A DNA stretch of 40,485 nt from Heterotrichella gracilis. Taxonomy: Eukaryota; Sar; Xanthophyceae; Tribonematales; Xanthonemataceae. The DNA lies in assembly GCA_032358255.1 (NCBI GenBank), contig JAULBX010027152.1, positions 1-40,485 of the forward strand. The letters run 5' to 3'. Below, in pieces: positions 14,496 through 40,485 of this stretch. The stretch's first letter is position 1, and every line of letters starts with the position of its first letter. The position numbers and the translations under genes are program-made. A model generated the notes under the pieces. It worked only from the letters and a program-made list of their open reading frames with translations. It was not told the origin of the DNA and did not search any database.

Positions 14496-14499
14496 TTTC

Positions 14500-17100
14500 A
14501 AAGCTGCAATGTGTTAACTCCTGCTCTTGCAAGCAGCGACTGCACAGTCACTGCGTGCAGATGCTAAGGTACTCGATGTAGGTTGCTATTTGCCTGCACA
14601 ACGTTCAGCTTGTGGCTGTCATGGTGGCACCGCAGGCATCGCTGCTTTTACCCACTGGTCAGCTGTTTTCCTACTGCTCAGAATTGTGCATTATGGCTCC
14701 CACTCAGGCTGATCAGCATATCCTCGGGTGCCAAGCCCTGCAAAATAAAGGGCTATTTATCAGCATGGCATTGTCCACACCACTTTACAAGATAGATCAA
14801 AGAAAGACAATTGTGGGGGAGCTGAGGCTAGTGCAGCAGGGATGGTGCCGAGCCTAAAACCACCAGCGCCAAACTACATGGAGCAGGGGCAATGCGCGCG
14901 GTCCATCCAGGCTACTGCAGCAGGGAGGGTGCCCGCCTGATGTATCGCGGGTACCGGCCCTATTCCATGCCTGCTAGCGCTGGCAATCAAGGCTTGGCAC
15001 CACTGGTGGCACCCTGTTGCAGTACCTTCCCAGCTCGTCCACACGTATCCTTTTTTGACCTAACTCTCAGCCAAACTCACGAGTCTCGCATGAGTCTTTG
15101 AAGAGCAGCCACAGGGCCAGGCCCTGGAACTAATACATTCCATGCCCTTGAATGATCCCTGCTGCAGCAGCAGGGTTTCGCTGCTGAAACGGGTTCTGTG
15201 TATCAAAGACAGGAGTACAAGATCAGTGACAGCATTTAGCATGGCCCATAATTGCCAGAGGCTGGTCCAGGAGCATGTCTACAACATTCTCCTTTGGAAG
15301 CACTGCAATCCATACTGAGTGCTTGGCACCAAGGGGTTTAGCTGCATTATGATGTATGAAAAAAGGTTCCTGGTAACACAGTGGTGGGTGAATACACAGG
15401 GGCCCTTGTTCATGCTTCCCGCAAAACCCTTGGAATCATTCAAGTTGATAACACGGTCCCAACGTTCAACATGGTGTCCCTCCAAAACGGTTGGTGAGAC
15501 AATCTTGTAACACCCATGTGCACAATCACTGACTCTGGGCATGGGCTTGTACTCTCTTAGGCAGTCACACACAGTCACTGGCACGAAGCCAACACTGTGT
15601 GACACGAAGACAACAACGTTACACTCAAAAGCCCAGTAAATGGATTTATGAACGGCGTCGTGACCGGCCCAATGGCATTCATGGGCAGTTTCTGTGTGGG
15701 CGCCATGCGAAAGGCAAAGCTTTGCTGTTGACAGCAAGCTGGCATACCTGCTCCCAATTGGCCGAATCCTCAGCCTGAAGAGAGTCTCTTGAGTGCTTAT
15801 TGGACGCCTTGCATGCGCAGAAAGACCTCGGTCACACACAGCCGACCCACCCACACTTGCTGCAAGCCATATCGACAAGGAAACACGCCCAGGCGGGCTA
15901 TCCCGGATGAAAACATGCAAAAAGGGGCTCGCACGTCTGGTAACCGATAGACCAACCATGCACACGAGGAGAGGGCACCCTTTGAGCGGCCTGTCTGCGT
16001 TTAAACCTTTGCAACTCTCGTAGCAGCGTCCTGTGTGGGCAACCGACAAAAGGTGGTCGGTTTCGGACCACGCTTTGCTTCAAGGTCGCACTCGGACAAG
16101 TTGGTCGGACTGTCCTAGCCATGTGGGCAGCGGTCGTGGTACGATTACTGTACGCGGCTGTTGGACGGTCGAATGATTCTCGTTGCTGCGAAACGCCATG
16201 GGTAATGATCAATTATCGCATAATCAGGGGGTGGAGCTGATCAGATGGGTGATCAGTGAACCATTTACCATGATCACAAGCCATTGCAGCTCCATTAGAG
16301 CCTGCATGACATGACATGATCATTTGTAGTCATGACCGATCGCGGTCATGCAAACTTGGAAGCAATCTTAAACCTTGGAATCAGCCATCTATTCAGATTA
16401 CTAATAGGGTATTGGTAAGGGTTTTGCAGCACAGCACCATGGCATGCCTGGCTGCAAGCTGACTCATAGCTTGGAGGACATAGCTGCAAGCAATTCTGGA
16501 GCTTTATAGCTCTGTTTGAAGGTCCAATGTATTCTTGAAACTCCATATGCCTAATGTAATCTCTCTGCACTGGTTTTGAGTACGCTAAATTGAGTGGCCA
16601 GACTGCCACCGAGTGCCCATTGCAGCACACAATCACTGTACATGACACCTTGCTGTTATCACAGGGATTCCACATGCAAGGCAAAAAGCAGGACTTGTCA
16701 GCAATATTCCTGAGACAATGGTTCAACGCTGCAGCAAATGGGTCACCATTTGATGGGAATACAGAATCCGCATGCAATCTGCAAAGAAGAAGAAAGAAAG
16801 AAACAAAATGCCCGGGGGCCCCACACACGGCAGCACACCACAACCAGCAATGTTAACAAGCAACTTTCAACTTCCAAGTAGCAGGATACTATGTCACTCA
16901 TGTGCACAATACAGCATGAAACATTCAAACTGTGGTACACCGCCCATGAGTGCACCAGTGAGGTAATACCCATTGTTTGCCTCAGAAAACAATCCTGTGC
17001 ATTGGCGCAACCATGAGAGAAGTCTTGGACAATATGCCCCCCACTTCTCCCTCCCCCATGTCCACTCCTCCCCAACACCAAACCCACTCCCTCCCTCCCT
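14500..17100. other. intergenic region
   Basis: No coding gene is supported. A 256-codon open frame on the minus strand (16049-15279) has Cys/His-rich, family-less content and no splice context. The region separates the 5' end of the YABBY-like gene from the 3' end of the DUF1295 gene. It contains a cluster of TGATCA palindromes at 16206-16322 and a hairpin at 16331-16350. The YABBY-like promoter should lie just to the right of 14495; no TATA box stands out. Confidence 0.45.
16206..16350. repeat. cluster of TGATCA palindromes and a hairpin
   Basis: TGATCA occurs five times (16206, 16238, 16250, 16271, 16317). It is followed by CATGACCGATCGCGGTCATG at 16331-16350, an 8-bp stem around ATCG. 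The cluster could be a binding platform or chance. It lies about 1.8 kb upstream of the YABBY-like coding start. Confidence 0.4.
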
Positions 17101-17104
17101 CCCT

Positions 17105-17195
17105 AGGGTTTGCGCTCCGCCCCCTCCTCCTCCTCCCGAGCAGCCCAGGCCAGGACCTGGGTGTGGCATCGCAGTAGGTCCTCCAACCAAACCAG
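17105..17195 (-). repeat. echo of the last DUF1295-gene exon, downstream of the stop
   Basis: On the minus strand this stretch reads YCDATPRSWPGLLGRRRRG against the true C-terminal YCDATPRFWPGLPGRRRGA at about 17310-17375. It is in direct orientation about 205 bp beyond the true copy and lies after the stop codon, so the duplication is not confined to introns. A heptamer fragment (GGGTTTAGGGTTTG) ends the true copy and CTAGGGTTTG ends the echo. Confidence 0.75.
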
Positions 17196-17306
17196 TCCTT
17201 GCACCACCCCAATGATTCTGCTCCAACCTGGACACTGCATATGCCACCACCAACAAAATGAGTGCTCCCCCTGCTCCTCCCCCTCCCAAAGTGCAGGGTC
17301 TGGGGT

Positions 17307-19783
17307 TTAGGGTTTGCACTCCGCCGCCCCCCTCCTCCTCCCGGGCAGGCCAGGCCAGAACCTGGGCGTGGCGTCGCAGTAGGCCTTCCAGCTGGGATCA
17401 TCCTTGTATCGCTCTGCCTGCTTGCGGTCCAGTCCTGCCGATGAGCTAATCATAGTGTAGGTGATGAGGACTGTACCGAGCAGGCTAGCTGCCAGGCCCA
17501 GGGGGCTTGCGGCGTACCCTGCGCGCAACACATGACATTGAAAATGAATGAAAATAAACAATAAATTATCATAATATATAAGAATACAAAATCAGCCTTG
17601 CAACGGGGAGACGTACACACTAAACCCGGGAACCATGCTTTGCAGGCGCCCACATGGCAGGGGGTGAGATGGTATAGGGGGGGGGCATCCACTCTAAGCA
17701 GGGGATAGTATAGGAGATGAGGGCAACACCAAAAAGCTGGCTGCTAGGGGCTAGCGGCGTACTCTGCACGCGAAGCATGGGGCGAGTCCAGCAGGGGAGG
17801 GGTAGATTGTCAACCCTAAACCATCCCTTGGCCACGCCAACACAATGGGGTTGAGAACAATCTCACCCTGAACCCTAAGCATGGTGCAGACACGATGGCA
17901 ATACTAGTGATGTAGCATGCACGCGCCACGCGGCAAGAGAACGAGAACGACCTCTATGGATATGCATAAGGTTCAAAACCCTTAACCAAAAACCCTAGAT
18001 CCTGATCATGGTGTCCATCACTCTGCCACCCTCACCTGTCGCCCCTGCCAGGAAGTTGCCCCACCAGAACACCACCTCCCCCTGGTAGTTAGCGTGCCTG
18101 CTCATCTTATACACCCCCTTGTCGCAGAACTTGCCAGGATCCTCCCTCTTGGCAGCCAGCTTTGTCCAATCGGCAGCCGCCTCCAGCGCCAATCCCCCAG
18201 CCGCCAGCACCAGTCCCAGTGATGTGAGGGGATCCACTCCCATGCCTGCTACCGAGCTGACAGATGTGGCGTGCAGGTGGCAGGGGAGGAACATGAGGGT
18301 GTACATGGTGGACACCCCCAGCCACATGCCAATGCGGGCACCCACGGGCAGCTTGTCTGTTTTATCCATGGACCCTACGGCAGGGTTTTGAGCAGATATC
18401 AGGGAAAATGACCAAGGTTCCATTTCCATGCCATCTGCTGAGCGTATAGGTGGCATGGCAGGAACATGAGGGTGTTCGTGCATGATACCCCCAGCCCAAT
18501 TTCCATGGGCAGCAGCTTGTCTAGCTTTTTCATGGACCCTAGCGAGGATTTTCCGACAGGGTGTAGGGTAAATACTGCACATGCAGGCGGGCCAATTACG
18601 TGCAGCTGGTGTGCCTTTCCTACAGACCCTACGGAAGGGTTTTGAGTTAGGGCGTTGGGATACACAGTGCATGTAGTGAGTCTGTGCCTGTCACGCAGGT
18701 AAACCCTAAACCTTAAGTCACTCACCGCTGATCTTCTCATTGTAGCTGGGTGAGGAGTGCATCCTGTACCACAGGAAACCTGCCAGGCACACGCCATAGA
18801 CCACACGCAAAACCTAACCAGAAAACCCTAATCTCCGTACCCCAAACCCTAATCCCCACACCAAATACCCTAAACCACTCACCGCTGATCTTCTCGTTGT
18901 AGCTGGGGGAGGTGTGCATCCTGTACCACAGGAAACCCGCCAGGCGCACGCCATAGCCCAGCACCAGGGCCGCGTGCAGCTTGGGGGTAGGGGCGGGGGA
19001 GCCCCGGGACAGCCACAGGCACAGCGCCCCTGGGGAGGGGAGGGGAGGGGGTTGTCAGTGATGCATTCTTCTGATCAACGGTAGGGATAATCTCTGGGAT
19101 TGGGTGACCCACAGTATCTCACTGCGCGCCTGGCTGGTGGGGTGGTTGGGGAAAGCGGTAGGGTTTTAAGGTAAGGGTTTGGGTTGGGCAACCATTCAAG
19201 CAGCATAGGCGGGGCAGGGGGTGGGGCGCAGAAGGACATCCACAAGCAGCGCGCTGCAAGGGATAGCCACAGAGACACACACCTACATGTGAGGAGGAGA
19301 GGAGGGGCTATAGCGGTGGGTTTTGCGTCAGCAGGAGGGTATTGGGTCAGCGGTAGGGTTGGGGTGAGATGTGCTGCCGTGGGGTGTCTCCATAGCCAGC
19401 TGTCTTAGGGTTGGGCAGGGGTCTGAGGGTTTCAGATGGTGCGCCCCACCCGCCATGTACTGCCATGGAGCTGCCATAGCCCACGAGGGTGTCTGCTAAT
19501 GGTTTATGATTAGGGTATCAGGGGTTTAGGGTGTTACAATCCACCCCACCCTGTGCTGCCATGGGGGGCCGTGCCATAGCCCGTACAAATGCCTGCGTAG
19601 GGTTTATTACTAGGGATGATGTCTAGGGTTTAGGGTATAGGGTTTTGCACCCACCCTGTGCTGCCATGGAGGCGCCATAGCCCAGCGAGATGAACCACAG
19701 CGGTCGCTTGAACCCTACGGCAGACGCCAGCAGGGATCCTCCCAGGTACAGCAGCGGCTTGGGCAACATGGCGAGGAGCTGGG
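17307..19783 (-). CDS. DUF1295 / steroid 5-alpha-reductase-like membrane protein
   Basis: Coding exons seen are 19783-19655, 19029-18883, 18374-18036 and 17518-17307, with matching phases and GT-AG ends. They encode about 275 residues with several hydrophobic segments (PLLYLGGSLLASAVGF, LVLGYGVRLAGFLWY, TMYTLMFLPCHL, SLGLVLAAGGLALEAAAD, LGLAASLLGTVLITY). The signature KMSRHANYQGEVVFWWGNFL and the C-terminal DRKQAERYKDDPSWKAY match the NADPH-binding C-terminal part of the DUF1295 / 3-oxo-5-alpha-steroid 4-dehydrogenase superfamily, which reduces double bonds in lipid or sterol-like substrates at the endoplasmic reticulum or plastid. The substrate is unknown. An acceptor precedes the first exon in phase 1, so a 5' exon is missing from this model; otherwise translation may begin at the ATG at 19769. 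The stop codon lies in a CCCTAA telomere-like unit. Confidence 0.8.
17695..17775 (-). repeat. echo of DUF1295-gene exon 5 start with acceptor
   Basis: Minus-strand GTGCAG|AGTACGCCGCTAGCC resembles the true CGCAG|GGTACGCCGCAAGCC at 17518. It continues with TCATCTCCTATACTAT against TCATCACCTACACTAT. It lies about 250 bp upstream in the intron, in direct orientation. Confidence 0.7.
18452..18545 (-). repeat. echo 1 of DUF1295-gene exon 4 start with acceptor
   Basis: On the minus strand CTAG|GGTCCATGAAAAAGCT followed by ACCCTCATGTTCCTGCCATG repeats the start of the true exon at 18374 (GTAG|GGTCCATGGATAAAAC, then ACCCTCATGTTCCTCCCCTG). The reading is GSMKKLDKLLP against GSMDKTDKLPV, with small deletions. 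Confidence 0.8.
18588..18642 (-). repeat. echo 2 of DUF1295-gene exon 4 start with acceptor
   Basis: A second, more diverged copy reads CAAAACCCTTCCGTAG|GGTC on the minus strand against the true CAAAACCCTGCCGTAG|GGTC, then GSVGKAHQLHVIG against GSMDKTDKLPVGA. It lies about 110 bp beyond echo 1, so three acceptor-bearing copies are arrayed in direct orientation. Confidence 0.75.
18718..18802 (-). repeat. echo of DUF1295-gene exon 3 end with donor
   Basis: Plus-strand CACTCACCGCTGATCTTCTC at 18718-18740 matches the true exon end at 18876-18895 almost exactly. Identity continues through ATCCTGTACCACAGGAAAC and CACGCCATAG. The donor GGTGAGTG is retained in both. Between them lie four AAACCCTAA-like units. 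Confidence 0.85.
18820..18875. repeat. interstitial telomere-like tract (example)
   Basis: Several AAACCCTAA-type units occur here. Comparable tracts are seen near 13183, 17297, 18704, 19504, 19613, 19810, 19890, 20614, 21402, 24180, 24405, 24779, 26741, 28771, 30600, 35430, 36050, 37067, 37498, 38391 and 38555. Each usually has two or three units with errors. Confidence 0.85.
19368..19590 (-). repeat. three successive echoes of DUF1295-gene exon 2 end
   Basis: The exon edge CCTGTGCTGCCATGGAGGCG at about 19654-19673 recurs in diverged form at about 19551 (CCTGTGCTGCCATGGGGGGC), 19452 (CCATGTACTGCCATGGAGCT) and 19371 (ATGTGCTGCCGTGGGGTGTC). Each copy continues into CCATAGCC. The copies are spaced about 80-105 bp apart and are separated by TTTAGGG-like runs. 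Confidence 0.8.
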
Positions 19784-19920
19784 CTGTGGGGCAAGGGGGG
19801 TGATGAATTGAAAACCCTAAACAAAAACCCGTAAAACCCTTGGACACCTTGGTGAAGAGTGTAGGCTTTGTGCAAGGGGCGGGGGTCACTTGAACCCTAA
19901 ACCCTGAATCTTTTGGCACC

Positions 19921-19957
19921 ACAACCCAGGAGCTGGTCTGTGGGGCAAGGGGCGAAG
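19921..19957 (-). repeat. echo of DUF1295-gene exon 2 start with acceptor
   Basis: Plus-strand AGGAGCTGGTCTGTGGGGCA at about 19928 repeats the true acceptor edge AGGAGCTGGGCTGTGGGGCA at about 19774. The gap holds AAACCCTAAACAAAAACCC and AACCCTAAACCCTGAA. Confidence 0.8.
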
Positions 19958-19959
19958 GG

Positions 19960-21456
19960 TGTGGGAAGCTGGTGGGTAGTGGGGTGCTGGATCCTGGAAT
20001 CGGGGTTTGCGCGTGAGCGTGCGCAAGGTGGTTCCAACTTAGAGACAGAGAAGAATTGTGCGGTGGCAAACGTGTGACGGTGGCGGAGTTTCGAAACAAG
20101 GTTAGGCGGTAGACATGGGGGTGGCGGTGCTTCTCGAGCGCTGCAGCGCGGTGGTTGGCACCTGAAGCGTGCATGCAACTGATAGAAAGCGCGAAATCCA
20201 ACTATTACAGCCTCACACAGGGCCTGCATGGGTTGCTCACCGGGGGTATGCATGCATGAGCGACGTCACATAAGCGACATGCATGCATGGCATGCGATGC
20301 TGCCCGAGACTCACTCGCTTGCACGTGCCTACACCTCACTCGCTTGTATAACCTATAAGCGTGTCAGTGGTTCACGCAAAACGCCCTCAGAGCAAACCGT
20401 GTGTCCAAAGGTTTGGCCTTACCAGTATTCGTGGGTAAACACGTTGAAGAGTTCGTGTAGAAGCGACACCAACGTGCAGTGAGGCTGTGGACACTTTGGA
20501 AAGCGGGCCTGGTATTTGGGAAACCGGGTGTATATTTATACGCCATATAACGACCATGTCGACTTTGGTTGCAACTGCAGTCAGTCTAAGACTTCAGGCC
20601 TGGAATGGGATCCCAAACCCTAAACCCTAAAATTCCCTTGCAAGGCTGGTTGGGGATGCAACCATCGGACTGCACAAGGGTGTGTCATAAGTAGGGACCC
20701 TGATGCAACGTGCTCTGAGCTACATGGCCTAGTATTGCAAATGATACAGCTGGTGTGCCGCTCGGCGTCCTACCACATGGTACCTCTTCAATTATCAAAC
20801 CAATCAGCCCTGAGGGCAGTGCCCCCCATTGCGAATGTTTTTGCCAAACGGCCTACGTAAACCAAGCCAAATTGGGCTATGCCAGCAATTGTGGCCCAAA
20901 CGATGCGTCCCCCTTTCAGAACCTATTCTTTCTCGTTTCTAGGAAGTGATCATCTGCAGCAACGTTGCCTTTTGACAACTTGCAACAAGCCAGCACCAAT
21001 TACTGTGTGTGCGCGACAGCCTTAAACCCCAACTAGGAAACTGTGCGCATCGATGAGCAGCAACAACTGGCTGAAGACGATGCTATTTGACTTGAATATT
21101 GAACTTTCCAAAATCCCATGTCTATGTACCAGCAGCACGGAATTGCGCATACCATATGGAGGGCTGTCAAGTCAATATGACAGCGCCAATGGCAAGTGTG
21201 GCATGGCCTTACCCTGCAGCTGCTCCTGCTTGAAGCATGAAGGATGAAGTGTGTGTGGAAATAGGCCAAAAAGCTCGCCCAAACTTGCACATGCGTGCCA
21301 CTAAAACGAGAGCCATAAATTGCACGGTTTTGACAAAAGCTGTGCTGCAAAAAACGGCAAAAAAGGGGCTTCAAGCACGCCCATTGCTTGAGCACCATAA
21401 AAAACCCTAAGCTTAACCCATAGACAACCCATGAACCCTAAACCCAAACCAGCGCC
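19960..21456. other. intergenic region
   Basis: The left part may contain the missing first exon of the DUF1295 gene: an open frame ending upstream at 20201 (-) is basic and Ser/Pro-rich, but its donor is unclear. Heptamer units occur at about 20614-20632 and 21402-21445. I saw no other gene. Confidence 0.4.
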
Positions 21457-24400: not shown

Positions 24401-27400
24401 GGGTTTGGGTTTAGGGATTGAGGTTAAGGGTTTCACGGCGCTGTGGAATTAAGGTATGGTGGCAGGATGGGTGGGAGATGGGGTGTGGCCATGGCGCACA
24501 TCTGGTAAGCATCCTTTTTGGTGCCGTCATTTTCAGGTGGGGTTAGTCCGCGGTGGAGCAAAACAGTTCAGGGGCATGTTGCAGTTGATAGTTCTATGCG
24601 TGCCCCAGGTGGATGCGGTAAAAGCACAGTTCTATTCTTAACCTGGAGGGGTGTCATACTCAGACGTGGCATAGGGCCTGCACCCACACCCCTGACTGTC
24701 GCAAGCTGGGCAAGGGTTGCTGGTCAATCCTAAGCACTGCTGCCACGCATGGGACCGGCGCTAATATACGAAACTGTTTTAGGGTTTAGGGTTTTTTGAC
24801 CTTTGCTCTAAAAGGCCGGATGCAAGAAAGCAGCCACGTATCTGGATAACCGTCAGATTGGAGGTATCGTGCACCCACCCTCCCGATGCCGTTCCGCTAA
24901 TCTTTTACATTAAATTTGCCCTTATAACCTTCTTAACCGACCTAAAGCTCGAGCTGAAGTGTCCATAAAGCTCACACCGCGACCAATAGTCACATAATAC
25001 AGGGTGTCACGCACTCACCCTCCCTGTGCCCTGGCTGTGCACCACGCTCCCGCCCAGTCCCTGCAGCTTGACCTCTGCAGTGAAGGGGCCTGAATCCTTG
25101 TCAGCCGTCTCACTGTACTTGAGCTGCGCACGCAGGGGTTGGGGGTTAGAATGCAGGGTTCAGGAATGTAGAGTATACAATGTACGGGTTTTTGGGGCAG
25201 TGCAAGTGCAATTTCGTCGCCATCAGCTTTCCCACTGTACTTGAGCTGCGCACGCAGAGGGTGGATGAATGGGTCAGGGGTTAAATGTAAGGTTCGGAGT
25301 TCGATGCATTGTAGTGTTTGAGCGTCGGTGCAAGCCAACTAACAGGACGTATAATTTCTGCCCCTCCGCCGCACCGTGCACCCTCTTTGGTTGCACACTC
25401 ATACAGACAGCAGTTGGGACTGTGTGGACCTCAAAAAGTCATCAAAAGGTTCTGGCCTCGTTGTTTTGCTGCACCTCACAACCCCTAGGGATAACTCCAA
25501 ATACTAAGGATTTCTCGGTCTCGAACCCTAGGTTTCTGATGCACCCACCTCAGTTGCACACTCATGCAGCACCGACAGCCCTAAAACCTAAAAACCCTTG
25601 CCCACACCCACCTCATAGCCCATCCTGGTCGCGTATTCGTGCAGGATAGACAGCGGCGACTTGTTGGACTGCTTGGGCTGTGCCCTGCAGGTCATGAGTA
25701 GGCTGTGGCACTTGGGGTACTTGAGCAGGGCAGTCTCGGGGTCCTCCAGTGCATCCAGCGCCACCTCCGGTGCCGGTGCAGCTGCCGGCGTGGCTTCTGC
25801 GGCCGCTGCGGGTGCCGGTGGGGCCTCTGTGGGTGCCGCGGTGGGTGCCGCGGTGGGTGCCGCGGTGGGTGCCGCGGTGGTTGCTGCGGTGGGTTCATCG
25901 GTAGTTAACATTGAGACCGGTGATGCACAGTTTACTGCCATCCTAGGTTTTGTTACATGCAGACATACTTCCACAGTCCATGCAGATAAATCTCCATAGA
26001 AACAACGCAGATGATGAGCAGTCAAATAGCCGAAACAGCATTGCGATCACACCTGTTGCTGGTGTGGTGCTGGCTGCTGGAGTGGCAGTGGTTGTTGCAG
26101 AGGCGGCCGGTGTGGCTGCGGCTCCCGGAGTGGCTGTGGCGGCGGCTAAAGCCGCTGCCAATGTGGTGGGGGCTGCCGGTATGGTGGTGGGTACTGGTGC
26201 AGCGGTGGGTGCTGGTGTGGCGGTGGCAGCTGGTGGTGGTGTGGCTGTGGCGGTGGCTGCTGGTGTGGGGGTGGCTGTGGCGGGTGGCGGCGTGGCGAAC
26301 GCAATGGCGAGGGCTTGCGCCACCGCAGCCTTAGGGTCTGCGGTCTTCCTCAGTATGTCTATGAGGGTGGTGAGGCTGGGGGCTGGCTCGGCCCCGGCGG
26401 TGGACAAGGGGGCTGAGATGTCTGGCTGTGCGGGGAGGGAAGCTAGGATATCGTCGAGGTTGCGGTTGGACAGGTGGACCGCCACGGGGCACCCACACAA
26501 CTGCGAGAGCAGGGGAGGGGGTCAGGAATAGGTCTAACTAGTAGTTGGGATGAGACATGAGGTCAGCAAAACACCGGAGAAAGTCTTGAGAAATATTGGG
26601 AGACCAGTGATGTACTAAAGTCCTCCCAAAGGCATTAAAGACTTTGAATTTGGGTCAATATACCATGCGCTGCTGGTCCAACGTTAGTGGCACGCCGCAT
26701 TAGTTGAGGTTAAGGGTGATCCAGCCTGCCTCCTTCACTTGCGTTTAGGGTTTATGGTTTAGGGTAGTTTAGGGTAATCAGCCAACCTCCTTCACTTGCG
26801 TTAAGGGTTTAGGGTTGAGGGTATTCCAGCCCACCTCCTTCACTTGCGGGCACGCCGCCTCCGCCGCCGCCCGGTCCGCCATGCACACAAACCCGTCCCC
26901 TCTGCATTTCCTGCTCGCCCCCCTGTACCGCATCAGCCTCACGCTCAGAACCTCGCCCAAGGAGGAAAAGGCAGCCGTGACCTGCTCCTCAGTAGCGATG
27001 GGAGGCAGGCCGCCGATGCAGACCTCGGTGCCAGACCCTTGCGTAGGGCTTTGGGCAGGGGTGGGGTCGGCGGTGTCCCTGCAGGGTGGGGTGCGATGGG
27101 GTTGGCCATGGGATGGTGTGGGGCGCACTTCCTGCTACTGTGCGTGCATGCAGCATAAATGCACCGGTCCCGCACACTTTGCTATGACAAGCAGCGGTGG
27201 ACAGCAGTGAACGTGGATCAGACTTACATGCCGCTGCCGCCCTCTGCCTGGGTCCCCTCCCCTGTGGCTTCATGCCTCTTCTCCCCTTGCACACGCTCAC
27301 CCCCCTCATCCCCACTCGTGACCAGGGCTGCACCACCACCCTCCTCCCCTTCCGCGGCCTGGGCTACAACACCAACAGGTTCTCCCCCTTCACCTTCGAC

Positions 27401-27916: not shown

Positions 27917-29041
27917 GCTGGGACTGTAGTGATCCCAGCGCTCCTCAGCTGCCCTTCAGGTGGCGGATAGGAAGCAATGGCCTGGGTGTGATTGAGCTGG
28001 AGGTGAATGGAGGAATTGGGCACAGAGTGAGTGGAGACATGTCATGACAGGGGTTGGGCCAGGAGGTGAGTGGGGCATAGGAAGTGACAGATGGGCCTGA
28101 GCAGAGCGACAAATGTAGGGCATGGGAGAACAGGGGTTGGGTGAGTAGGCAGGGACGTGGACGTGCGTGTGGGTTGGACAGAAGATAAGCTTGCACCATG
28201 CTACGTGAGTGGTGGGAAAAGATGCTGGAAAATTTCGCCCAACACTAGCAGGCCGCACACAGCACGCGGCGGGGCCCATCCAAGGGTGCATCCCAGTCAG
28301 GCTGGATCACCTCACAGGAAGGCTTGACAGCAGTCGGTGCAGCGAAAGAGCGTTGCTATACCGCCCAATACCACTTGATAAACTTCAAGCTTGGCACAGT
28401 TACATTTGCATGCATTAATGCATCCACCATGTGTACGGTTTGGGTTCGTAGGCTTACCTATAGGACAGCAGCTGAAGCCCGGAAACAAGCAGAAACTGCC
28501 CAATAACGCGTTTCCTGTTACAGTACCGCAAAAATAGGCTACAGAGTTGTGGTGTACAGTCTTCGTCCTACACGAGACAGCCCGAGAAGGACCAGATGCA
28601 TGTACACAGAGCCCTCGGCTCACATCTATCGGACTCTGTACACTCAATGTTTGGAGGACTTCACCAGGACTTAACCAAAAGATCGGGCGTGACGCTCCGA
28701 AGCAGAGAAGAGAAGCAAATAGCAACACAAAAAAGAAAGACCATTTCCACCCACAAAAACCATTTCATTTTGGGTTTAGGGTTTTAGAGTCCGGCACATG
28801 ATGTGCTGAAGTGACACAAGGTGGTAATAGCCGCGCCTCGCACCTCTGTCTACCATAGATAAGACATACCTCCCTGCATTGAATTGATAACACTCCGAGA
28901 TAGCCATGTCTAGAGTGTTGGGTAGATCTAGGTTGCATTCCGTTAGCATGCCGTTGCAAAAGGAGTGCACCGCACCACGCCAGTAAACGGTTAACGGGCC
29001 AAAAAGACAGCCCTGAAACGCAGAACCCTTATCCATGCACA
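27917..29041. other. divergent intergenic region
   Basis: This is the space between the start of the RNA-binding protein gene (-) and the start of the 162-aa gene (+), so it should hold both promoters. No clear TATA box was seen. Open frames here look random. A GGGTTTAGGGTTTTAG tract lies at 28771-28786. Confidence 0.5.
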
Positions 29042-30452: not shown

Positions 30453-32908
30453 TTAGCTGTCTGCTGTGGCTGTGGCTGTGGCTGTGGCTGAAGCCGCCGC
30501 CGCCGCGGCCGCCCGCGTCATCTCCACGATTGCATCCTTGATCCCCTTGCGGTCCTCCGCAGGCCTGCACCCACAGCGCGGGGTTTAGGTCAGGGTCCAG
30601 GTCCCCAATGCAGGGTTTAGGATTTAGGGTTTGGTGAGGGCAGTGTCAGCCACAGGGGTACCGCATGGGCCATCCCTGCCCCAAGCACACCAAGGGGGTC
30701 AATATTACAAACCAGGGCCACAATACCCCGGTGGGCATCTTCTGCTCGCCAGGCACCGGGATCCATGCGGTGCATACATGTAGCAGTGATGATGGCCTAT
30801 GCGGCGCTCCTGTGGCTGAGCACCGCCCTCCCCAAATGTGGCCATGTGTGTGCACTAGGGGGTTCAACTCTGGTGTGTGGCCCACATTTGGCAATGTACC
30901 AAGCTCGCACTCCGCACGACCGATTGCTAGATACGGCATCGCAATGCATTGCAAAGCGTGTGCACGGCACCTCATATGTGACCCGCGACACCCACCTTGA
31001 GTATGGCAGCCTGCACTTGAACGACTGCCCGTCCCGCTTGCACGCCACATTCATGCCCAGCCTGTCCAGGCTCAGGATCTTGGCCTCTTGCACCGTGATG
31101 CCCACGTAGTGCTTGACCATTGCCACAGTGGAGTCTGCATGGTCCTGGTTCATGTGGCCGGCCACAGGGGCTGAGAAGGGGGCGATGGGGTCGGGGGAGG
31201 CAGCGGTGTACTGGTCACCGGGGATCTGCAAGTTTGGATACTAGGGATGAGCTAATAGACTCTATAGAACCATGACTGTAATCTGACTGTGTAGGCTAAG
31301 CAATGGATGGGTCTCACAAGGACTCACAAGGGTTGCACAATGCATTAAAAAAAAGTGACCAGGGTTCTTGGTCAACAGATCTGCAACCAGCACGCACCCT
31401 TCCCCATGCAAGCCCGCCAAAACCCGCCCCATGAACCAGCATCAGCAAGGGTTTTTGACAAGGGTCTCCAGCGCCACCCACCTTCCCCGCGCGCGCAAAC
31501 CCACCCACCAGCCTCGCCACCAGCACCTGTTCCATCCTGAACCACGTGAAGTCGCCAAAGTCCACCCAGAAAGAGTCGGGGTTGCGGGCCTTGTAGGCAG
31601 CGCGTGCGGCCTCCACCTCCCCCTCTGGTATGGGGGCCACGCTGCCGGTGATGGTCACGCGCCCGTCAGACATGCTCTGCGGGTGGATGGGAGGGTGCTT
31701 CATATTCAAATAATTATATCTGAATATCCAATGATATTTTTTACTATTGTTCATTGTTATTTGGATAATAAGGGGAGGCGGCGCGTGCGTTGGTGCCTGT
31801 TGTGATGCATGATGCATGGCTACACAGAACCCTGGCATCCTCATCGCCTACCCGGCCCATCCGCCTCATGCTGGGCCTCCTGCACCCCCCCCATCCTCCC
31901 CAATCCATGTCACCACCCTCATGCACTTTAGGAGGGTGCCATGTGAACCGCCACACCACCCAAACCACCGCCAAACCCACACCACCACCCACACCCACCC
32001 CGTCTCCCACGCACCGCAAATCCAGGCGTGGTGACAGTCAGGCTGGCCCTGCCATCCTTGCGCAGGTCGCCCGTGTGAGCAGACATTGAGCTGAAGGCAA
32101 ACAGGGGCCGGCCCTGCTCATCAGGCGCATACTCGACCACCGAGCCGGAGGGAAACCCTGTTGGGTCTGTAGCGCTGCAGGGGGGGAGTATGTGGGTGAT
32201 GACAGGGGAGGAATCCAGGGCCATGTGTGATGTCGTTTGTGGCGCTGCAGGGGGTGCTGCCTTGTGTTTGGCATGAAAACCGTTGCTGGCCCAGCTTGGC
32301 CCTCCCCAGCCACACCCACCACCGCCGCCACTGCCACATCCGCCGCCACAGCCACAGCCACAGCCACCATGCTACCTACCTGAGTGTTGAGATGAGCCCA
32401 GAGCATGCACCCTCTCCCCCTGTATCCCCCTCCTAAAACCCACCAACAATATCACCAACACCACCCGTATCCCCCACCATACCCCCCACCTGAGCGTGGA
32501 TATGACCCCATACTTGGCACCCGCCACCAGCGTGCGCGCCTCCTCTGCCATCCCTAGCCGGGGCGCAGACTGCTGGTGTTGCTGGAAGGCGAGTATCTCT
32601 GGATCCTGCGCTTGCTCTGAGTAGGCACTGCTATTGGGGACTTGGTGGCCTGGGTGGGGTGGGTGGTTGAGGAGGTGGGTTTGTGGATGGGGTGGTATGA
32701 CCAGTTGTGGCAATATGTCGGTATTCGTGGCATACATTATGAGCTGGCTAGGGTCGTGCAGTAGGGTTTTGTGTGCAGAGGGGTGCAGAAGGGTGAGTGG
32801 GTCAAGGGCGTGGCCTGCGGTTTTTGTGACCCACCACTTTGTAGTAGGGTTTTGCAGTAGGGTTTTGCACAGCCACTCACCACTTTGTGTCTCCTGCTTT
32901 TCGGCCAT
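30453..32908 (-). CDS. HugZ-like FMN split-barrel + DUF2470 protein
   Basis: Six exons: 32908-32881, 32640-32490, 32174-32015, 31676-31482, 31225-30996, 30564-30453, with closed phases (291 residues). The exon 2 acceptor is a weak AAG chosen to fit phase; a stronger TAG 10 bases on does not fit. Domain 1 is a pyridoxamine-phosphate-oxidase-like split barrel: EEARTLVAGAKYGVISTL, GFPSGSVVEYAPDEQGRP, LFAFSSMSAHTGDLRKDGRA, SLTVTTPGF, and SFWVDFGDFTWFRM. Domain 2 is DUF2470: FSAPVAGHMNQDHADSTVAM and KCRLPYSR. It matches the plant At3g03890 / HugZ-like family, which binds heme or FMN and is implicated in heme breakdown or tetrapyrrole regulation in plastids. The ATG at 32908 sits in a good context (GCCATGGCC). 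An in-frame Arg/Ala/Thr/Pro-rich extension without ATG runs up to an acceptor-like CACAG at 33020, so an upstream exon could add a transit peptide. Confidence 0.82.
32163..32258 (-). repeat. echo of HugZ-like exon 3 start with acceptor
   Basis: The true edge, minus strand CTGCAG|CGCTACAGAC at 32174, recurs as CTGCAG|CGCCACAAAC about 75 bp upstream at about 32235-32256. Both are preceded by a C-rich run. The match is short but includes the acceptor. Confidence 0.55.
32378..32400 (-). repeat. echo of HugZ-like exon 2 end with donor
   Basis: ACCTGAGTGTTGAGATGAGC at 32378 repeats ACCTGAGCGTGGATATGACC at 32488, the true exon 2 end with its donor. The copies are in direct orientation 110 bp apart. 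Confidence 0.65.
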
Positions 32909-33031
32909 GGCGGTGACGCGCGTGCGGGCGTGGTGGGGTGGGGTGCGGGTGGAGGCGGGGGTGGCGGTGGCTGGGCGGGTGGGCAGGAGGGCGCGCAGCA
33001 AAAGTGCGGGGCGGGTACCCTGTGGGGGTGG

Positions 33032-33038
33032 TATTTAA
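33032..33038 (-). promoter_or_regulatory. possible TATA-like element of the HugZ-like gene
   Basis: The minus strand reads TTAAATA about 125 bp upstream of the chosen ATG at 32908. If real, transcription would begin near 33005 and the upstream acceptor at 33020 would be irrelevant. Support is only the motif and its position. Confidence 0.2.
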
Positions 33039-33039
33039 G

Positions 33040-34547: not shown

Positions 34548-37500
34548 ATGATAAGCTTGAAGCGGGTAGGATGGCTGTGCGCTGTGCTTGCATCCCTCCT
34601 GCAGCACAGTGCCGCGCAAGGAGACCCTGCGCAAGTGCTGGACAGCCCATCACCGCGACACTTGGCGTATGAAAAGGTACGAAAGGTATAGTGCCATACT
34701 GCTGATGGCCAGCCCAAGCAATACCTTGAACTCAAATATGGGCTTGCATTGACGTCTGGTCGTATCCATATGACTATGTATGCAGACAGTTGCTCCAAAG
34801 CACTATGGAGCCCACACCCCAAGCACACCTCCCTTCGCTCCCATCAAACACAGACCCTTTGGTGCTTCCACCCTCCATGCCCCACTCACTATATCCTCCA
34901 TCCACTACCCAATACACCCTCCATTCCCACCTACCCCACCGCCCACCAGCCAGCCATTCCACCCTCCAGAGCCTAAACAGGCTCTTGCCGCTTCCTACGC
35001 ACAAAGGCCCACCGCCTGTACCCCCTCCGACCACCTATGGCAGTATCATTGATACCATGCCCTGTCTTGCAACTAAGGCCAGATGTTCGGCTCCCATCCC
35101 ACCTTCCCCCCACCTGCTGGCCACTCAGCATACAGGAACTTACTCGACCCTAGACCCTAAACCACACGCTGGCTTCCCACCCGCATTCCCCCCCAACCAC
35201 ACCCCCTCCCATCACCCCCTCTTTAACCACCCTGCTGTGCCCTGTCCCGCAGCTAAAACAGTCCTCAGGCGCCCACCCCGCCTCCCGCCACCTGCTGGCC
35301 CAGTCAGCGGGCGTGAACCAGTATGTGTGGCAAGCCAAGAAACCCCTGCCCGAGGGTGGGGAGTATGTTGAGCGGGCGCTCAGTGGCTACTTTGGGCACG
35401 AGGCGCTGGTATGTAGCGGGGTTGGACAAACCTTAAACCCTAAATCCTAAGCCTTACCCAGTGACTGCTTTGGGCACGGGGTGGGTGGTAGGTACACCTG
35501 GCTGTGGTGGCACACACACCCTCAGCCCTGGATAGGATGCCTACCTTTGTCTCAAAAATGTCAAGACGGTTCTGCATTTGGGGGGCCAATATAGGAGTAT
35601 CTTGCATCGTAGACCAAAATTGCAAAGCAAATTTCTGCCTTCCTCGCCGTGCGTAGGAAGCCTACCTGAATGAGTTCACCGAGCGCTGCGGGACCATATC
35701 CCGCCTGTACAGCATCAACCAACCTGGTTTTAGAATGAAAAATTCAGCAGATCAAAAAATGCATAGCAAGAGAATGGGGAACTTAAATCCCCAATCTCAA
35801 AGTGTAAAGCAATGGAAAGTCTATAACTTCGCCTCAATCTTTGCAGGAGGCTTACCTGCAGGAGTTCAGCGAGCGCTGCGGGTCCATCTCCCGCCAGTAC
35901 AGCATCGGTCAGAGCAGCCAGGGGCGCGAGCTGTGGGTGCTTGAGCTGTCGGACCAGCCAGGCAAGCTCGAGAAGGAGCCCAACGTGAAGTATGTGGGCA
36001 ACATGCATGGGGACGAGCCGGTGGGCAAGTGAGTGGCGCCCACACAAGCGTAAACCCTGAAACCCTGAACCTTAAACCCTTTGTGCAGCTGTGCGCACAT
36101 CCACCGCCGCATTGTGCAGCGCTAGCGCAAGCACCAATACCACAACCATCTGGCATGCACCTCCCCTGTATGTGCGGGGACAAGCGACATGCGTGGGGAC
36201 GAGGGGGTGGGTAAGTGAGTGGCGGGGCCTGGATGCATGTGTCACTGCCAGTGGTGCAGCACCTTGCACCTCCACCCCCACCCCCACCCCCACCCGCATA
36301 CGTGCACCTTCTACCCCCAAATGAAGCATGCATGTGAACCTCTCTGCCATCCCCAGCGCCACCGCCCATGGCCAAGGGTACTAAGAAAACAATAGTCCTA
36401 TCAGTATCTTATTACCCTTGCCATGGCCCATCACATCCCCCCACCTCCATCCCCCCACCCCCCACCAGGCAGCTCCTCCTGGCCCTGGCGGAGTGGCTGT
36501 GCCAGCACCACACCTCCCACCCCCTGGCCTCCTCCATTATCAAGGACATGCACCTGCACCTCCTGCTCTCCATGAACCCCGACGGCTTCGAGACGCACCG
36601 GCGCGGCAATGCAGCGAATGTGGATCTCAACAGGGGGTTTCCGGACCCCATTTTGGTGGATTCTAATGGTCAGATTCAGCCTGAGGCCAAGGCGGTAATG
36701 GATTGGTCCCTGGGGACCCATTTTCTTGCTTCGGCATCCATGCACGAGGTGGGTGGGGTGGACGATGAGGGTTTTCAGGAGCGGGGCTTTCCATTCAATT
36801 TTGAATGCAGGAAATTCGCTCCAGCGTAAACCCCAACCCCATCCCCACTGCAGGGCGCTCTTGTGGCCAACTATCCCTGGGACGGCCACCCCCAGGGCCG
36901 CACCACCTACCATGGATGCCCAGACGATGCCGCGTACCGCCACCTGGCGGCAAGCTATGCAGCTGCGCACGTGCGCATGGCGGGGTCTAAGGAGTTCCCT
37001 CAGGGCATCACCAACGGGGCGGCGTGGTACCCGCTCAACGGGGGCATGCAGGTAGGGGGTGGGGCTAGGGTTTAGGGTTTTCAAAATGTAGGGTCAAGGA
37101 TGAGTATCACCGACGGGGCGGCGTGGTACCCGCTCAATGGGGGCATGCAGGTGGGGGGCGTAGGGTTCGTCCTTGGGGGAAAGTATCATGGTTGAAAAAA
37201 GCAGGAAAAATTGTCCAGCGACAGCAGTTAACTTTTCTTTAAAAAAGGACCTGATGTAAGATCATGCTGATCTTTTCCATGTTGTGCACCCTGTACTAAT
37301 ATCTACCCCTGTGGCTGCCTCAGGACTGGAACTACGTGTATGCCGACTGCCTGGAGCTCACCCTTGAGCTGAACGACGCCAAGTGGCCGCCTGTGGGGGA
37401 GCTGCAGGGGCTGTGGCGGGATAACCTGCCGGCGCTGCTGGCGTTCCCGCTGGTGGCGGCATTCAGCGGGGTCAGGTGGGTGCGGATGCACAAATCTAGG

Positions 37501-40485
37501 GTTTAGGGTTTATACCCAAGGGGCTGTGGACGGACAACCTGCCGGCGTTCCCGCTGGTGGCGGCATTCAGTGGGGTCAGGTGGGTGGGGATGCGCGGTGT
37601 GGGTTCAGGGTGTAGGGTGTAGGGTGTAGGGTGTAGGGTGTAGGGTGTGGGTTCAGGGTGTAGGGTGCATGACAGGGCTGGCTGCACATGGATGCGTGGC
37701 GGCTGTTGTAAGCGCGCTAGAGCGTGTGTGGGGGTATGTGGGGCTGTGGCAGTGGGTATGGCTGTGCACCTTGTGTGCATGTGCTGGAGGCTGTGGCTGC
37801 GGCTGTGGCTGTGGCTGTGGCTGTGCATAAAGTGTTGCCCCCAACCTGGTCCCTGACCTGTGCCAACACCCCGTGTGTGTGCATGTGCAGGGGTGTGGTG
37901 AGCGGCGAGGGTGGGGGTGCGCGGCGCAGGGCGCTGCCAGCTGTCATCCAGGTGGTGGGCATAGACCACGACTCCTATGCCTACCTGCCATATGGAAACT
38001 ACTACAGGTGCGTGCTGAGCGCCATTGCATCACCACAAACGCAATCGCAAGAATGTTGGGACTCCCAGATCTGCACCTTTCGTGCCATTATCGACTCCCA
38101 TGCATTATACACCAAACACAGCAGTGATTCCATTTTGCATGCCCTGCGTGTGGCAATTGTGATACTAAAACACACACATTTCTCACCGTCCTCCCCCCTT
38201 CCCACTTCCCAGGCCGCTTGCCCCCGGCACCTACAACCTCACCGCATGCCTGGAGGGCTACGTGTGCGGCCGCGCGGTGGCGGTGGTGCCCGAGGATGGC
38301 ACTGGAGTGGTGGTGGACTTTGCGCTGCAGCGGGACCCACAGGGGCGCAGCAGTAGCTTGGACGCTGACACGCAGGAGAAGGTGGGTGGTGGGTTTAGGG
38401 TTTAGGAGGGAATTTTGTGATGCAGCGAGACCCACAGGGGGTGCAGCAGCTTGAAGGCAGGCATATAGGGAGAAGGTGTGGCTTAGGGTGTGGCTTAGGG
38501 TGCAGGGTTGGAACCACTGTTTATCATCATCGTGTACTCTTCTGTTTTCAATTAGGGTTTAGGGTTTAGGTTTAGGGTGCAGGGTGCAGGTTTGGAATCA
38601 TTGTTCATCATCATCTTGTACTCTTCTAATTTCAATTTGGTGCCTTCGCACATGTTCTGATCTTGTCCATCCTGTTGTACGGTATATGATCGGTATTTGG
38701 AAAGATCATGATTGATGATTCTTGTCATACAATTTTAATATCATGAGTCGTACTCTCTTGCAGGCGGAGCGCCCCGAGCGCGACTCCATCCACGTGCTGC
38801 ACCGCAAGGCGAGGCTGGCGCTGGCGCACCGCCAGCTCAGCTCGCACCACACGCGCCGCCAGGTACTGCCCTCTCTTACTCTTGCTAGCAGCTGCACCTT
38901 GCTGTTCCACCCCCTCTGTGTTGACATATTTTTGTATCTAAACCCTGTATCCTCCGCACAATTGGAGATTGCCCCTCCCCAATCCCATCTGTGTCCAGCG
39001 CCAGGTTTTGGACCCTGCTTACCTCCGCTTGCTTCCTCAGGTGCTGCTCTCGGAGCTCGCCGGCGCAGCATCAGGGCTGGACGAGCCCGGCAGCGGCCCC
39101 CGGCGCAAGCGGCTGCGCTTGCGCAAGAAGCGGCTGCGGTCGGGGGCCGCGGCAGGGGATGAAGACGGCGGCGGCAGCGGTGGTGGTGCGGAGGGGGCTG
39201 GGGAGGGGGCGGAGGGGGACGACTTTGGGGAGCGGCGCAAGCGGAGGATGCGCAAGCGGCGCCGGCGGAGCAAGGGAAAAGACACGGCGCCGCGCCCCGG
39301 AGTGGTGGGGCGGGAGGATGAGAGCGGGGAGGCTGATCCCGACATGCACCTGCACGACCCCGATGAGCGGGCCGGGGCGGGCGGGGTGGAGGCGCACGTG
39401 AGCGAGAGGTGGGTTTGGGGTTGTAGGGTTTTGGGGTTGGGAAGGGATGGGTGCGCTACGTGCACGCTGGGCAGTCTTGTGTCAAAGTGAATTGTCGAAA
39501 TCGTCATCAAATTGCCCAAGAATCACCAGCAGTAAGTCATGGAGCCAATCCCCCCAGAACCAGATTATGCGTTTGGCATCGGGTTGTAAAAATGTCACGA
39601 GGACTTACTCAATCCTGGATTTGTCATGGTCTAATTGCACAGATTGTTGATTAATGATCGATGCGCACAGGGTGTCCATGGCCGCTGCTGAGGCGGGCGC
39701 AATTGCATCCACTGGGGACGATGAGGACAGGGTCCGTCCCCGCATGGATGATGTGGAGGTGGATCGGGATTTGGATGCCATCAGCAAGCGAGACCCCAAC
39801 ATGAGGTCGCAAGGGTACGTGGCCAGGGTGGAGTGTGTGTGTGGCAGATCTGTACGTGGGAAAGAAAATGAATAGGAAGGCGATGCACCTGTGTGAAGGC
39901 AAGCGCGTATATATCTTCTATTTTTTGCTTTTTTAGAGTCTACAGTACAGGGCACAGTGCTAACCCAACCCAGGCCTCTGGCACTGTGGATCTGCATGCC
40001 AGGAAGTGTTTTCACCCGAAAAAATACATGCGGCGCGTATGATTGTTGGTGAGCTACTCACTTTATCACCAGGCAGCCACATGCTGGTAATAATAATGAA
40101 TAGTAATAATAACAACAACTATTATTAAAGCCAGGCGGCCAACTTGACGTCTTTTGCTGCCGCCACAGGGAGGCGGCTCAGAGCGAAGGGGAGGGCCAAG
40201 GGGAGGGCCAAGGGGAGAGCCAAGGGGAGGGCCAAGAGGAGGTCGTTGAGCCTGCGCCCTCGCTTGTGCGGGACAGCGGCAACGGCAGCGACGATGCAGA
40301 CACCGCCCTGGCTGCCGCCGCCGAGGAACAGGAGGGGGAGAAACAGCAGGAATCGCAAGGAGGGGAGGGGGAAAAGGACGGAGGAGGGGATCAGCAAGGG
40401 GAGGAAGGTGCCTCTGAGGGGGTGCAAGGGGAGGTGAAGGCTGGGGAGGGAGGGGGGACAGGGGGGATTGATGCGCCGGCGGTTA
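34548..40485 (+). CDS. M14 zinc carboxypeptidase, SOL1/carboxypeptidase D-like (partial at right end)
   Basis: Twelve exons seen: 34548-34676, 35253-35408, 35847-36028, 36469-36748, 36854-37051, 37324-37475, 37891-38007, 38213-38381, 38764-38862, 39041-39408, 39671-39814, 40169 to the window end. All phases match, giving 770 residues so far. Exon 1 encodes a signal peptide ([20 protein letters not shown]). The catalytic domain has the zinc ligands H149 and E152 in [10 protein letters not shown] and H248 in ASASMHE, substrate-binding N210/R211 in [15 protein letters not shown], and the catalytic Glu about 330 in [14 protein letters not shown] transthyretin-like domain follows ([32 protein letters not shown]). 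The family removes C-terminal Lys/Arg from secreted peptides; plant SOL1 processes peptide hormones. Family members usually have Gly after the third ligand His, but here Glu follows ([13 protein letters not shown]). After the enzyme domains comes a long tail: basic ([12 protein letters not shown]), then Glu/Gln/Gly-rich repeats, continuing beyond the window. Confidence 0.9.
35056..35131 (+). repeat. echo of carboxypeptidase exon 2 start
   Basis: GCCCTGTCTTGCAACTAA followed later by CCACCTGCTGGCCACTCAGC resembles the true GCCCTGTCCCGCAGCTAA and CCACCTGCTGGCCCAGTCAG at 35238-35310. The acceptor AG has become AA in the echo. The copies are about 184 bp apart. Confidence 0.75.
35457..35490 (+). 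repeat. echo of carboxypeptidase exon 2 end
   Basis: CAGTGACTGCTTTGGGCACG at about 35459 repeats CAGTGGCTACTTTGGGCACG at about 35384 near the true donor. Between them lies CCTTAAACCCTAAATCCTAA. Confidence 0.8.
35657..35725 (+). pseudogene. partial duplicate of carboxypeptidase exon 3 with intact acceptor
   Basis: After the acceptor GCGTAG, this copy reads [20 protein letters not shown] against the true [20 protein letters not shown] at 35847. It is in the same phase as the true exon. It loses similarity after the SI(N/G)Q codons and lacks the true exon's donor and zinc-ligand part. It is either a decayed duplicate or, less likely, an alternative exon. It covers 64 of 182 bases. Confidence 0.8.
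36181..36226 (+). repeat. echo of carboxypeptidase exon 3 end with donor
   Basis: ACATGCGTGGGGACGAGG followed by GGTGGGTAAGTGAGTGGCG repeats ACATGCATGGGGACGAGC and GGTGGGCAAGTGAGTGGCG at 36001-36038, including the donor. CCCTGAA/CCCTTAAA-type units lie just after the true copy. Confidence 0.85.
36374..36420. mobile_element. 47-bp palindromic mini-element, second copy, with 8-bp target duplication
   Basis: The element starts AAGGGTACTAAG and ends TATCTTATTACCCTTG. It is flanked by CCATGGCC at 36366-36373 and 36421-36428. Its right 30 bases match the element at 4603-4651 with three differences, and its left arm has diverged. It lies in intron 3 of the carboxypeptidase gene, within 50 bp of the exon 4 acceptor. 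Confidence 0.7.
37098..37160 (+). repeat. echo of carboxypeptidase exon 5 end with donor
   Basis: GGGGCGGCGTGGTACCCGCT, then CAATGGGGGCATGCAGGTGG, repeats the true exon end at 37016-37056 with only a few changes. Between them is TAGGGTTTAGGGTTTTC. Both copies keep a GT donor, so alternative donor use is possible in principle. Confidence 0.92.
37515..37595 (+). repeat. echo of carboxypeptidase exon 6 end with donor
   Basis: GGGGCTGTGGACGGACAACC, then GTTCCCGCTGGTGGCGGCAT and GGGGTCAGGTGGGTGGGGAT, repeats 37398-37488 with one 9-base deletion and a few substitutions. TAGGGTTTAGGGTTTATACC separates the copies. Confidence 0.92.
37597..37668 (+). repeat. variant telomere-like heptamer array (GGGTGTA)n
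   Basis: About eight units of AGGGTGT with two GGGTTC interruptions follow directly after the exon 6 echo. The period is seven, as in TTTAGGG, but with a fixed T-to-G change, which suggests local homogenisation of a telomere-like seed. Confidence 0.8.
38408..38478 (+). repeat. echo of carboxypeptidase exon 8 end with donor
   Basis: GTGATGCAGCGAGACCCACA, then GGGAGAAGGTGTGGC, repeats GCGCTGCAGCGGGACCCACA and CAGGAGAAGGTGGGTGG at 38325-38387, with deletions. GGGTTTAGGGTTTAGG separates the copies. Confidence 0.85.
38497..38640 (+). repeat. intron-internal direct duplication flanking a heptamer tract
   Basis: GTGCAGGGTTGGAACCACTG with TCATCATCGTGTACTCTTCT at about 38499-38541 recurs as GTGCAGGTTTGGAATCATTG with TCATCATCTTGTACTCTTCT at about 38584-38626. 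AGGGTTTAGGGTTTAGG lies between. No exon is involved, so the process is not specific to splice sites. Confidence 0.9.
40188..40240 (+). repeat. 12-bp coding minisatellite
   Basis: About four units of GGGGAGGGCCAA encode GEGQ repeats in exon 12 of the carboxypeptidase tail. The surrounding tail is similarly Glu/Gly/Gln-rich. Confidence 0.8.

Follow-up and report, generated by a model that had tools for sequence, protein, structure and literature searches.

Partially tandem insertions in rice and paired-nick duplications in Arabidopsis have a unit, filler, unit structure, as do the duplications described below; to our knowledge, neither has been tied to telomere repeats or to exon edges.

Human repair-mediated duplications, of which 824 cases with 4 partial exon/intron donors are described (Pace et al. 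2009, PMC2671141), resemble the present copies in being short, closely linked and separated by filler; they are ascribed to break repair, and splice sites are occasionally duplicated in them. Here, however, most pairs involve exon edges, telomere repeats are abundant in the spacer and the orientation is almost only direct. Telomeric insertions at breaks carry a target duplication at 6 of 130 loci in rodents and 4 of 25 in primates (PMC2246262), as do 3 of 66 interstitial telomeric loci in the horse (PMC7215372). These too are short patches inside a chromosome, sometimes with direct target duplication, but duplication is a minority outcome there and the available portions of the two reports note no link with exon edges, whereas patch and duplication occur together here. 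Small tandem duplications formed by CST-guided Pol-alpha fill-in of 3' overhangs at induced breaks in mouse and human cells are likewise direct and overhang-sized; they arise at breaks and are made by the telomere C-strand fill-in machinery, and the available portions of that study mention no telomere repeats in the gap separating the two copies (PMC8355091). Finally, tandem-duplication intron gain and introners, as presented in the accessible text of their reports, also place direct repeats near splice sites (PMC2891723, PMC9860276), but the repeat described here flanks one intron end rather than both and creates no intron.

We find that exon edges are copied locally together with their splice sites, both in the window (the whole analysed stretch of 40,485 nucleotides, contig C464) and elsewhere in the same genome, a fragmented assembly of 68,512,230 bases in 903 contigs. 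The best reading of these copies, which we call echoes, combines two known kinds of event, repair-mediated duplication and interstitial telomeric insertion, at an unusual scale and with an unusual concentration at exon edges. They bring together three usually separate subjects of study, namely local duplication, interstitial telomere repeats and the borders between exons and introns. Searches of the open-licence literature listed no paper describing copied exon edges that are separated by telomere repeats. We hold with moderate confidence that the echoes are scars of local break repair accompanied by telomere-repeat insertion, the telomere-type patch being a product of that repair.

Echoes in the carboxypeptidase gene and across the window

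Pfam matches in the window comprise an M14 carboxypeptidase, DUF1295, RRM and DUF2470; a further match, to CREG, falls short of its cut-off. The carboxypeptidase gene, our worked case, and the plus strand around it contain the following features, with identities given between echo and exon-side copy.

35058..35129, + strand: older echo of 35238..35308 with the acceptor dinucleotide altered (75%)
35238..35308, + strand: acceptor and exon start (35253), from the scan and edge comparison
35655..35716, + strand: echo upstream of 35845..35906 (87%; use adds 8 stops)
35845..35906, + strand: acceptor and exon start (exon 35847-36028), from the scan and translation
35998..36038, + strand: exon end and donor (junction 36028/36029), from the scan and translation
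36184..36224, + strand: echo downstream of 35998..36038, AAACCCT-type units in the spacer (88%; use adds 4 stops)
37007..37059, + strand: exon end and donor, first copy (junction 37051/37052), from the scan and a protein alignment across ...GGMQ/DWNY... (slash, junction)
37060..37105, + strand: spacer with the telomere-like patch CTAGGGTTTAGGGTTTT, from sequence inspection
37106..37158, + strand: intronic echo of the exon end and donor at 37007-37059 (94%; donor use adds a stop)
37406..37512, + strand: exon end and donor (junction 37475/37476) in two aligned blocks, with TAGGGTTTAGGGTTTA 3' of the donor, from the scan and translation
37519..37614, + strand: intronic echo of 37406..37512 (86-90%; donor use adds 3 stops)
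38319..38384, + strand: exon end and donor (38381), from the scan and edge comparison
38414..38478, + strand: echo of 38319..38384 with a telomere-like spacer (76%)
38480-38556 and 38563-38640, + strand: intron-only duplication with telomere-like units (81%)

The two blocks of 37406..37512 pair 37406-37434 with 37519-37547 (90%) and 37435-37512 with 37539-37614 (86%). Spliced at the exon-side copies, the gene yields an open 418-residue protein that aligns to duck carboxypeptidase gp180 (1h8l) at E 5e-76 and without gaps across the ...GGMQ/DWNY... junction, while use of the echo donors 37150, 37578 and 36214 adds 1, 3 and 4 stops, respectively, and that of the echo acceptor 35657 adds 8. A protein search with one carboxypeptidase exon returned 11 fragmentary relatives, and no second copy of the carboxypeptidase or DUF1295 loci, either paralogous or as an allelic empty site, was found in the genome, the matches being small repeats. 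Two further repeats lie in this region: a near-palindrome of about 50 bp in a carboxypeptidase intron (36373-36423), a small dispersed inverted-repeat element that matches more than 10 other contigs, several on both strands, and a GGTGTAG heptamer array (37596-37667), whose unit is a telomere variant and which has counterparts on many contigs.

The remaining echo loci of the window lie on the opposite strand.

9822..9991, - strand: acceptor edge (9848) with echo 9910-9991 (78%), beyond the span of the original prediction
11366..11596, - strand: donor edge (11562) with echo 11366-11417 (73%), also beyond that span
17104..17390, - strand: copies 17104-17185 and 17308-17390 (88%) at a predicted edge, 17319/17320, exon or 3' flank
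17502..17779, - strand: acceptor edge 17502-17534 (17518) with echo 17747-17779 (82%)
18269..18392, - strand: exon start and acceptor (18374), from the scan and edge comparison
18442-18552 (73%) and 18578-18646 (75%), - strand: two older echoes of the exon start at 18269..18392, from the scan
18703..18803, - strand: echo of 18860..18960 (88% over 101 bp), with CCCTAA-type spacer units on the + strand
18860..18960, - strand: exon edge of the DUF1295 reductase-like gene (donor 18882/18883), from Pfam and the scan
19447..19684, - strand: donor edge 19648-19684 (19654) with echo 19447-19483 (86%)
19774..19952, - strand: acceptor edge 19774-19798 (19783) with echo 19928-19952 (96% over 25 bp)
25101..25264, - strand: acceptor edge 25101-25142 (25123) with echo 25223-25264 (88%)
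26708..26848, - strand: donor edge 26813-26848 (26834) with echoes 26708-26743 and 26767-26823 and TTTAGGG units between, from the scan
32364..32544, - strand: old echo pair 32364-32434 and 32474-32544 (68%), located where an exon edge is predicted in the DUF2470 gene

All four pairs that the original prediction gave as examples were found at essentially the same positions. Homology was checked across junctions in the carboxypeptidase gene only; in general, exon edges are predictions, made without RNA support by a small hidden Markov gene finder trained on the same sequence, which called 435 exons (donor CAG/GTGGG, acceptor TGCAG/G) and overcalls introns at the cost of intergenic DNA. It also mistook certain echoes for exons (those at 37092-37150 and 37521-37579, for example), which bears on annotation. 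At the very start of the contig, positions 1-72 match L026 2176-2247 at 97%, as well as parts of L017 and L015, and represent a dispersed repeat.

Abundance and placement of the copies

The sample, 240,485 bases in total, consisted of the window together with twenty 10-kb stretches from elsewhere in its genome (L009-L028, contigs C2-C13). Self-comparison at a score of at least 20, with the inverted orientation and 5 local shuffles as controls, returned 123 direct local repeats against 5 inverted ones and a mean of 0.0 in the shuffles. A low-complexity filter at entropy 0.85 (score at least 18, same 240 kb) gave 43 direct, 4 inverted and 0 shuffled repeats, and it was relaxed because it dropped true cases such as 37007/37106. 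A predicted exon edge falls within 81 of the 114 pairs whose offset does not exceed 500, in one copy of 60 pairs and in both copies of 21, as compared with a mean of 38.6 and a maximum of 50 in 300 random shifts. The excess persists in the 20 loci outside the window, where 54 of 79 pairs contain an edge against at most 40 in 200 shifts and where 12 loci hold at least one edge pair, so that the genome-wide excess by which the prediction was to be checked is indeed present in the 200 kb beyond the window.

A second scan, which admits overlapping tandem copies as well, returned 83 edge pairs, with 23 further pairs in non-coding DNA and 11 in exons. Exclusion of 12 window pairs in coding tandem repeats left 105, namely 75 edge, 23 non-coding and 7 exonic, with 18 of the edge pairs in the window, close to the 19 or so claimed from inspection of the sequence. 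The copies affect 56 distinct edges among the 794 predicted, 34 donors and 22 acceptors, and recur in direct local orientation on both gene strands beyond chance, in agreement with the earlier claims that both kinds of splice site and both strands are involved. Bootstrapping over the 20 loci places the edge to non-coding ratio at 3.2 (1.7-6.9), and extrapolation from the 57 pairs in 200 kb of contigs C2-C13 alone suggests about 20,000 copies genome-wide (bootstrap 10,000-29,000). Sixteen extra loci (L001, L003-L008, L030-L034, L037-L040; 47,158 bp, scanned with the trained model) include 12 with at least one pair and are no fair sample, since most were fetched by telomere-type motifs. Two stretches of the window, 22200-24000 and 27280-27780, encode low-complexity proteins whose coding tandem repeats mimic echoes in the automatic scan.

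Offsets, mostly 50-250 over all direct pairs, have a median of 168 (10-90% range 91-251) in edge pairs, whose units have a median length of 67 bp; most pairs have a spacer between the copies, and identities span about 68 to 96%. In the 69 pairs whose junction could be placed, the median reach of the unit is 13 nt on the intron side and 43 nt on the exon side. The intron-side reach is 1-15 nt in pairs at least 90% identical, and the unit crosses the junction in 65 of the 69. Multi-copy cases occur at L016 6887, L020 7856 and L011 7060. Serial duplication takes an extreme form at L037 382-1618, where exon-like units are repeated many times over and telomere-type spacers lie between them.

This anatomy bears on two alternative origins. 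Synthesis-dependent capture, in which nearby DNA is copied into an intron break and the spacer is the original intron, would explain why the copies are local, direct and spaced, and nearby-donor events are documented in human (PMC2671141). A captured copy need not hold a splice site, however, yet exonic pairs that lack an edge number only 7 of 105 and the unit crosses the junction in nearly every placed pair, so that we regard this origin as quite improbable. Tandem-duplication intron gain or introners, both of which give repeats at intron ends in other lineages according to the accessible text of their reports (PMC2891723; PMC9860276), seem extremely improbable: a donor in one copy is aligned with an acceptor in the other in 0 of 114 pairs, the donor and acceptor flanks of 374 introns are no more similar than controls, and the spacers do not form a dispersed family, with 0 of 69 covered by inter-locus repeats in the 240-kb sample after masking of telomere 6-mers.

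The concentration at exon edges exceeds what placement alone would give. In 20,000 trials of random unit placement, 3,131 units fell across one edge and 11,927 in non-coding DNA, a ratio of about 1:4 against the observed ratio of about 3:1 (75:23), i.e. a roughly 12-fold edge excess. In simulated duplications (120 events per class and age; neutral divergence 0.02 to 0.3), recovery fell through 0.96, 0.92, 0.88, 0.84, 0.68 and 0.30 for edge events and through 0.95, 0.93, 0.73, 0.64, 0.26 and 0.00 for intron events, detection thus being nearly equal for young events and favouring edges among older ones. Pairs at an identity of at least 85% in the first scan number 25 at edges against 7 confined to introns; from this and the simulation, the edge excess is mostly not one of ascertainment. 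Motif density near edges, detection and the faster loss of intron-only pairs each contribute to it, and we estimate that a several-fold excess is left unexplained after these contributions. Selection would account for the inclusion of the splice site, because exon-internal events would break the gene; a scarcity of events away from exons does not follow from it.

Divergence of the copies and telomere-type spacers

Exon and echo differ unevenly across the 56 distinct edges, with mismatches at 114 of 918 first codon positions (0.124), 111 of 914 second positions (0.121), 180 of 907 third positions (0.198) and 248 of 1,100 positions of the intronic part (0.225), the difference across codon positions being significant (chi-square p 1e-6). 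A mismatch of about 0.12 corresponds to one freely changing lineage and about twice that to two, with extra synonymous change at position 3, which indicates that only one copy is constrained; the pattern fits constraint on the exon-side copy and neutral decay of the echo. Among the 51 echoes whose splice dinucleotide could be aligned, 43 retain it and 8 have lost it, with another 5 left unaligned; such retention would be expected if echoes served as functional alternative or decoy splice sites. That idea is nevertheless very improbable, as the intact fraction does not clearly exceed what neutrality predicts (binomial p 0.25), the echo diverges to the same degree at the first and second codon positions, and the four tested echo sites of the carboxypeptidase gene add 1-8 stops.

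The same divergence speaks to the worry that the copies stem from collapsed or misjoined haplotypes. The assembly is fragmented (903 contigs), but a divergence of 5-30%, one-sided by codon position, is unlike that of allelic copies, the units end near exon edges and the pattern recurs in 12 of 20 other stretches; we give an assembly artefact hardly any credence. Nor do the results support a class of element, for which the original prediction knew no named example: the spacers of the sample share no dispersed family, the copies decay neutrally and the nearest known kinds are scars of break repair.

The pattern TTTAGGGTTTAGGG occurs 5,629 times in the genome against 5 for its reversed form, and arrays of TTTAGGG x7 number 45. 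On six contigs such arrays lie in the first 200 bases and point outward, and five contigs have plus-strand arrays; TTTAGGG is the telomere repeat of this genome. A telomere 6-mer is present in 44 of 66 edge spacers of at least 20 bp and in 9 of 15 non-coding-only spacers, as compared with 20.4% of 3,000 length-matched non-coding segments outside echoes, and densities reach 50.2 per kb in edge spacers and 32.5 in non-coding-only spacers against 5.3 in other non-coding DNA (6-10 times), the top spacer 6-mers being permutations of the telomere heptamer. The claim that many gaps between copies contain heptamer units stands as a tendency rather than a rule. Because duplications confined to non-coding DNA carry the motif too, it belongs to the duplication process rather than to splice sites.

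Spacer 6-mers read away from the exon at 28.0 per kb and towards it at 18.3, while echo-free non-coding DNA holds 3.4 and 3.7 per kb, respectively. Among 56 non-overlapping spacers, 37 contain one repeat orientation (26 of them reading away from the exon), 2 contain both and 17 lack the motif. Two-sided addition by telomerase, with G-strand units near the left copy and C-strand units near the right, found no support (Fisher p 0.07 for the sense orientation, 0.24 for the plus orientation). Ahead of acceptors, CTRAY is most frequent at a distance of 20-30 nt, and CCCTAA becomes more common across this branch-point zone as well, so that splicing may favour the C-strand orientation there; splicing does not account for the motif at large, given the presence of the motif in non-coding-only duplications.

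Counted in 5-kb pieces, echoes become more numerous as the motif grows denser in the sequence outside them (Spearman 0.57, or 0.51 once edges and GC are allowed for), the density quartiles holding 6, 24, 36 and 40 echo pairs for 180, 193, 197 and 223 edges. The motif is also raised past the echo (18 of 34 donors and 11 of 22 acceptors against 31%), which means that the telomere patch may predate the duplication. Such data bring forward a somewhat unlikely alternative, whereby telomere-like tracts came first and were causal, stalling forks or provoking breaks, with the edge duplicated by slippage, template switching or unequal exchange and no repeat added. Consistent with it, echo-free edges of the window and L009-L028 carry outward-reading motif at about 8 versus 3 per kb in their first 50 nt, at donors and acceptors alike; L014 130/232 and L020 412/509 are plain tandem duplications with a telomere tract within the unit, as is the L020 7856 case; and interstitial telomeric tracts are described as fragile in yeast and human (PMC6410037). 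On the other hand, motif cover in the spacer exceeds that past the echo (0.124 vs 0.085 for donors, 0.099 vs 0.055 for acceptors), and in several young pairs, examined by eye, the spacer is not evidently homologous to what follows the second copy, unlike the case of a plain tandem duplication.

Break repair as the proposed origin

Break repair with retained overhangs and telomere-repeat insertion remains our preferred reading, because it joins the direct orientation, the unit-spacer-unit structure, the telomere units and the neutral decay of the echo. If the DNA broke in a staggered manner near an exon edge, or a fork collapsed there, overlapping single-stranded ends would be left, and their fill-in would keep a stretch of about 25-130 bp on both sides; telomere-repeat units, added or captured before end joining, would then complete a unit, a telomere-patched spacer and a second unit. 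Were the unit wholly internal to an exon, the gene would be broken and the allele lost. Across an exon edge, both copies would hold the splice site, so that such duplications would be tolerated, the exon-side copy being spliced and the other decaying harmlessly. Directly observed are local duplication in direct orientation only, spacer telomere patches that occur also in duplications distant from exons, units that take in the splice site, constraint confined to the exon copy and the stops that use of the four tested echo sites would add; we infer the break, its staggered form, the fill-in by telomerase or CST/Pol-alpha and the selection against exon-internal events. The edge excess, the 17 of 56 spacers without motif, the lack of support for two-sided telomerase addition, the motif beyond the echo and the three echo-free light-harvesting loci count against the break-repair reading.

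A broader proposal, that exon edges are preferred sites of telomerase-assisted break repair, that the process has shaped intron sequence at large and that transcription or splicing (e.g. through R-loops at the G-rich donors) sets the break sites, is in our judgement unlikely. On this proposal, which draws on the outward telomere-like units at echo-free donors and acceptors, a sizeable part of intron-end sequence may consist of healed breaks. If some 20,000 copies do exist genome-wide, this genome would serve as a natural archive of break repair, with the exon copy preserving the ancestral state and the echo acting as a neutral clock.

The scan of the 16 extra loci returned no echo in L033 or in the light-harvesting loci L038-L040; three such loci are too few to judge whether highly expressed genes are spared. 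A photosynthetic eukaryote, most likely a green alga, is indicated by the 43 matches of the genome to the chlorophyll a/b-binding family, one of which best resembles the CP26-type antenna proteins of solved photosystems, with green-algal proteins as the top entries.
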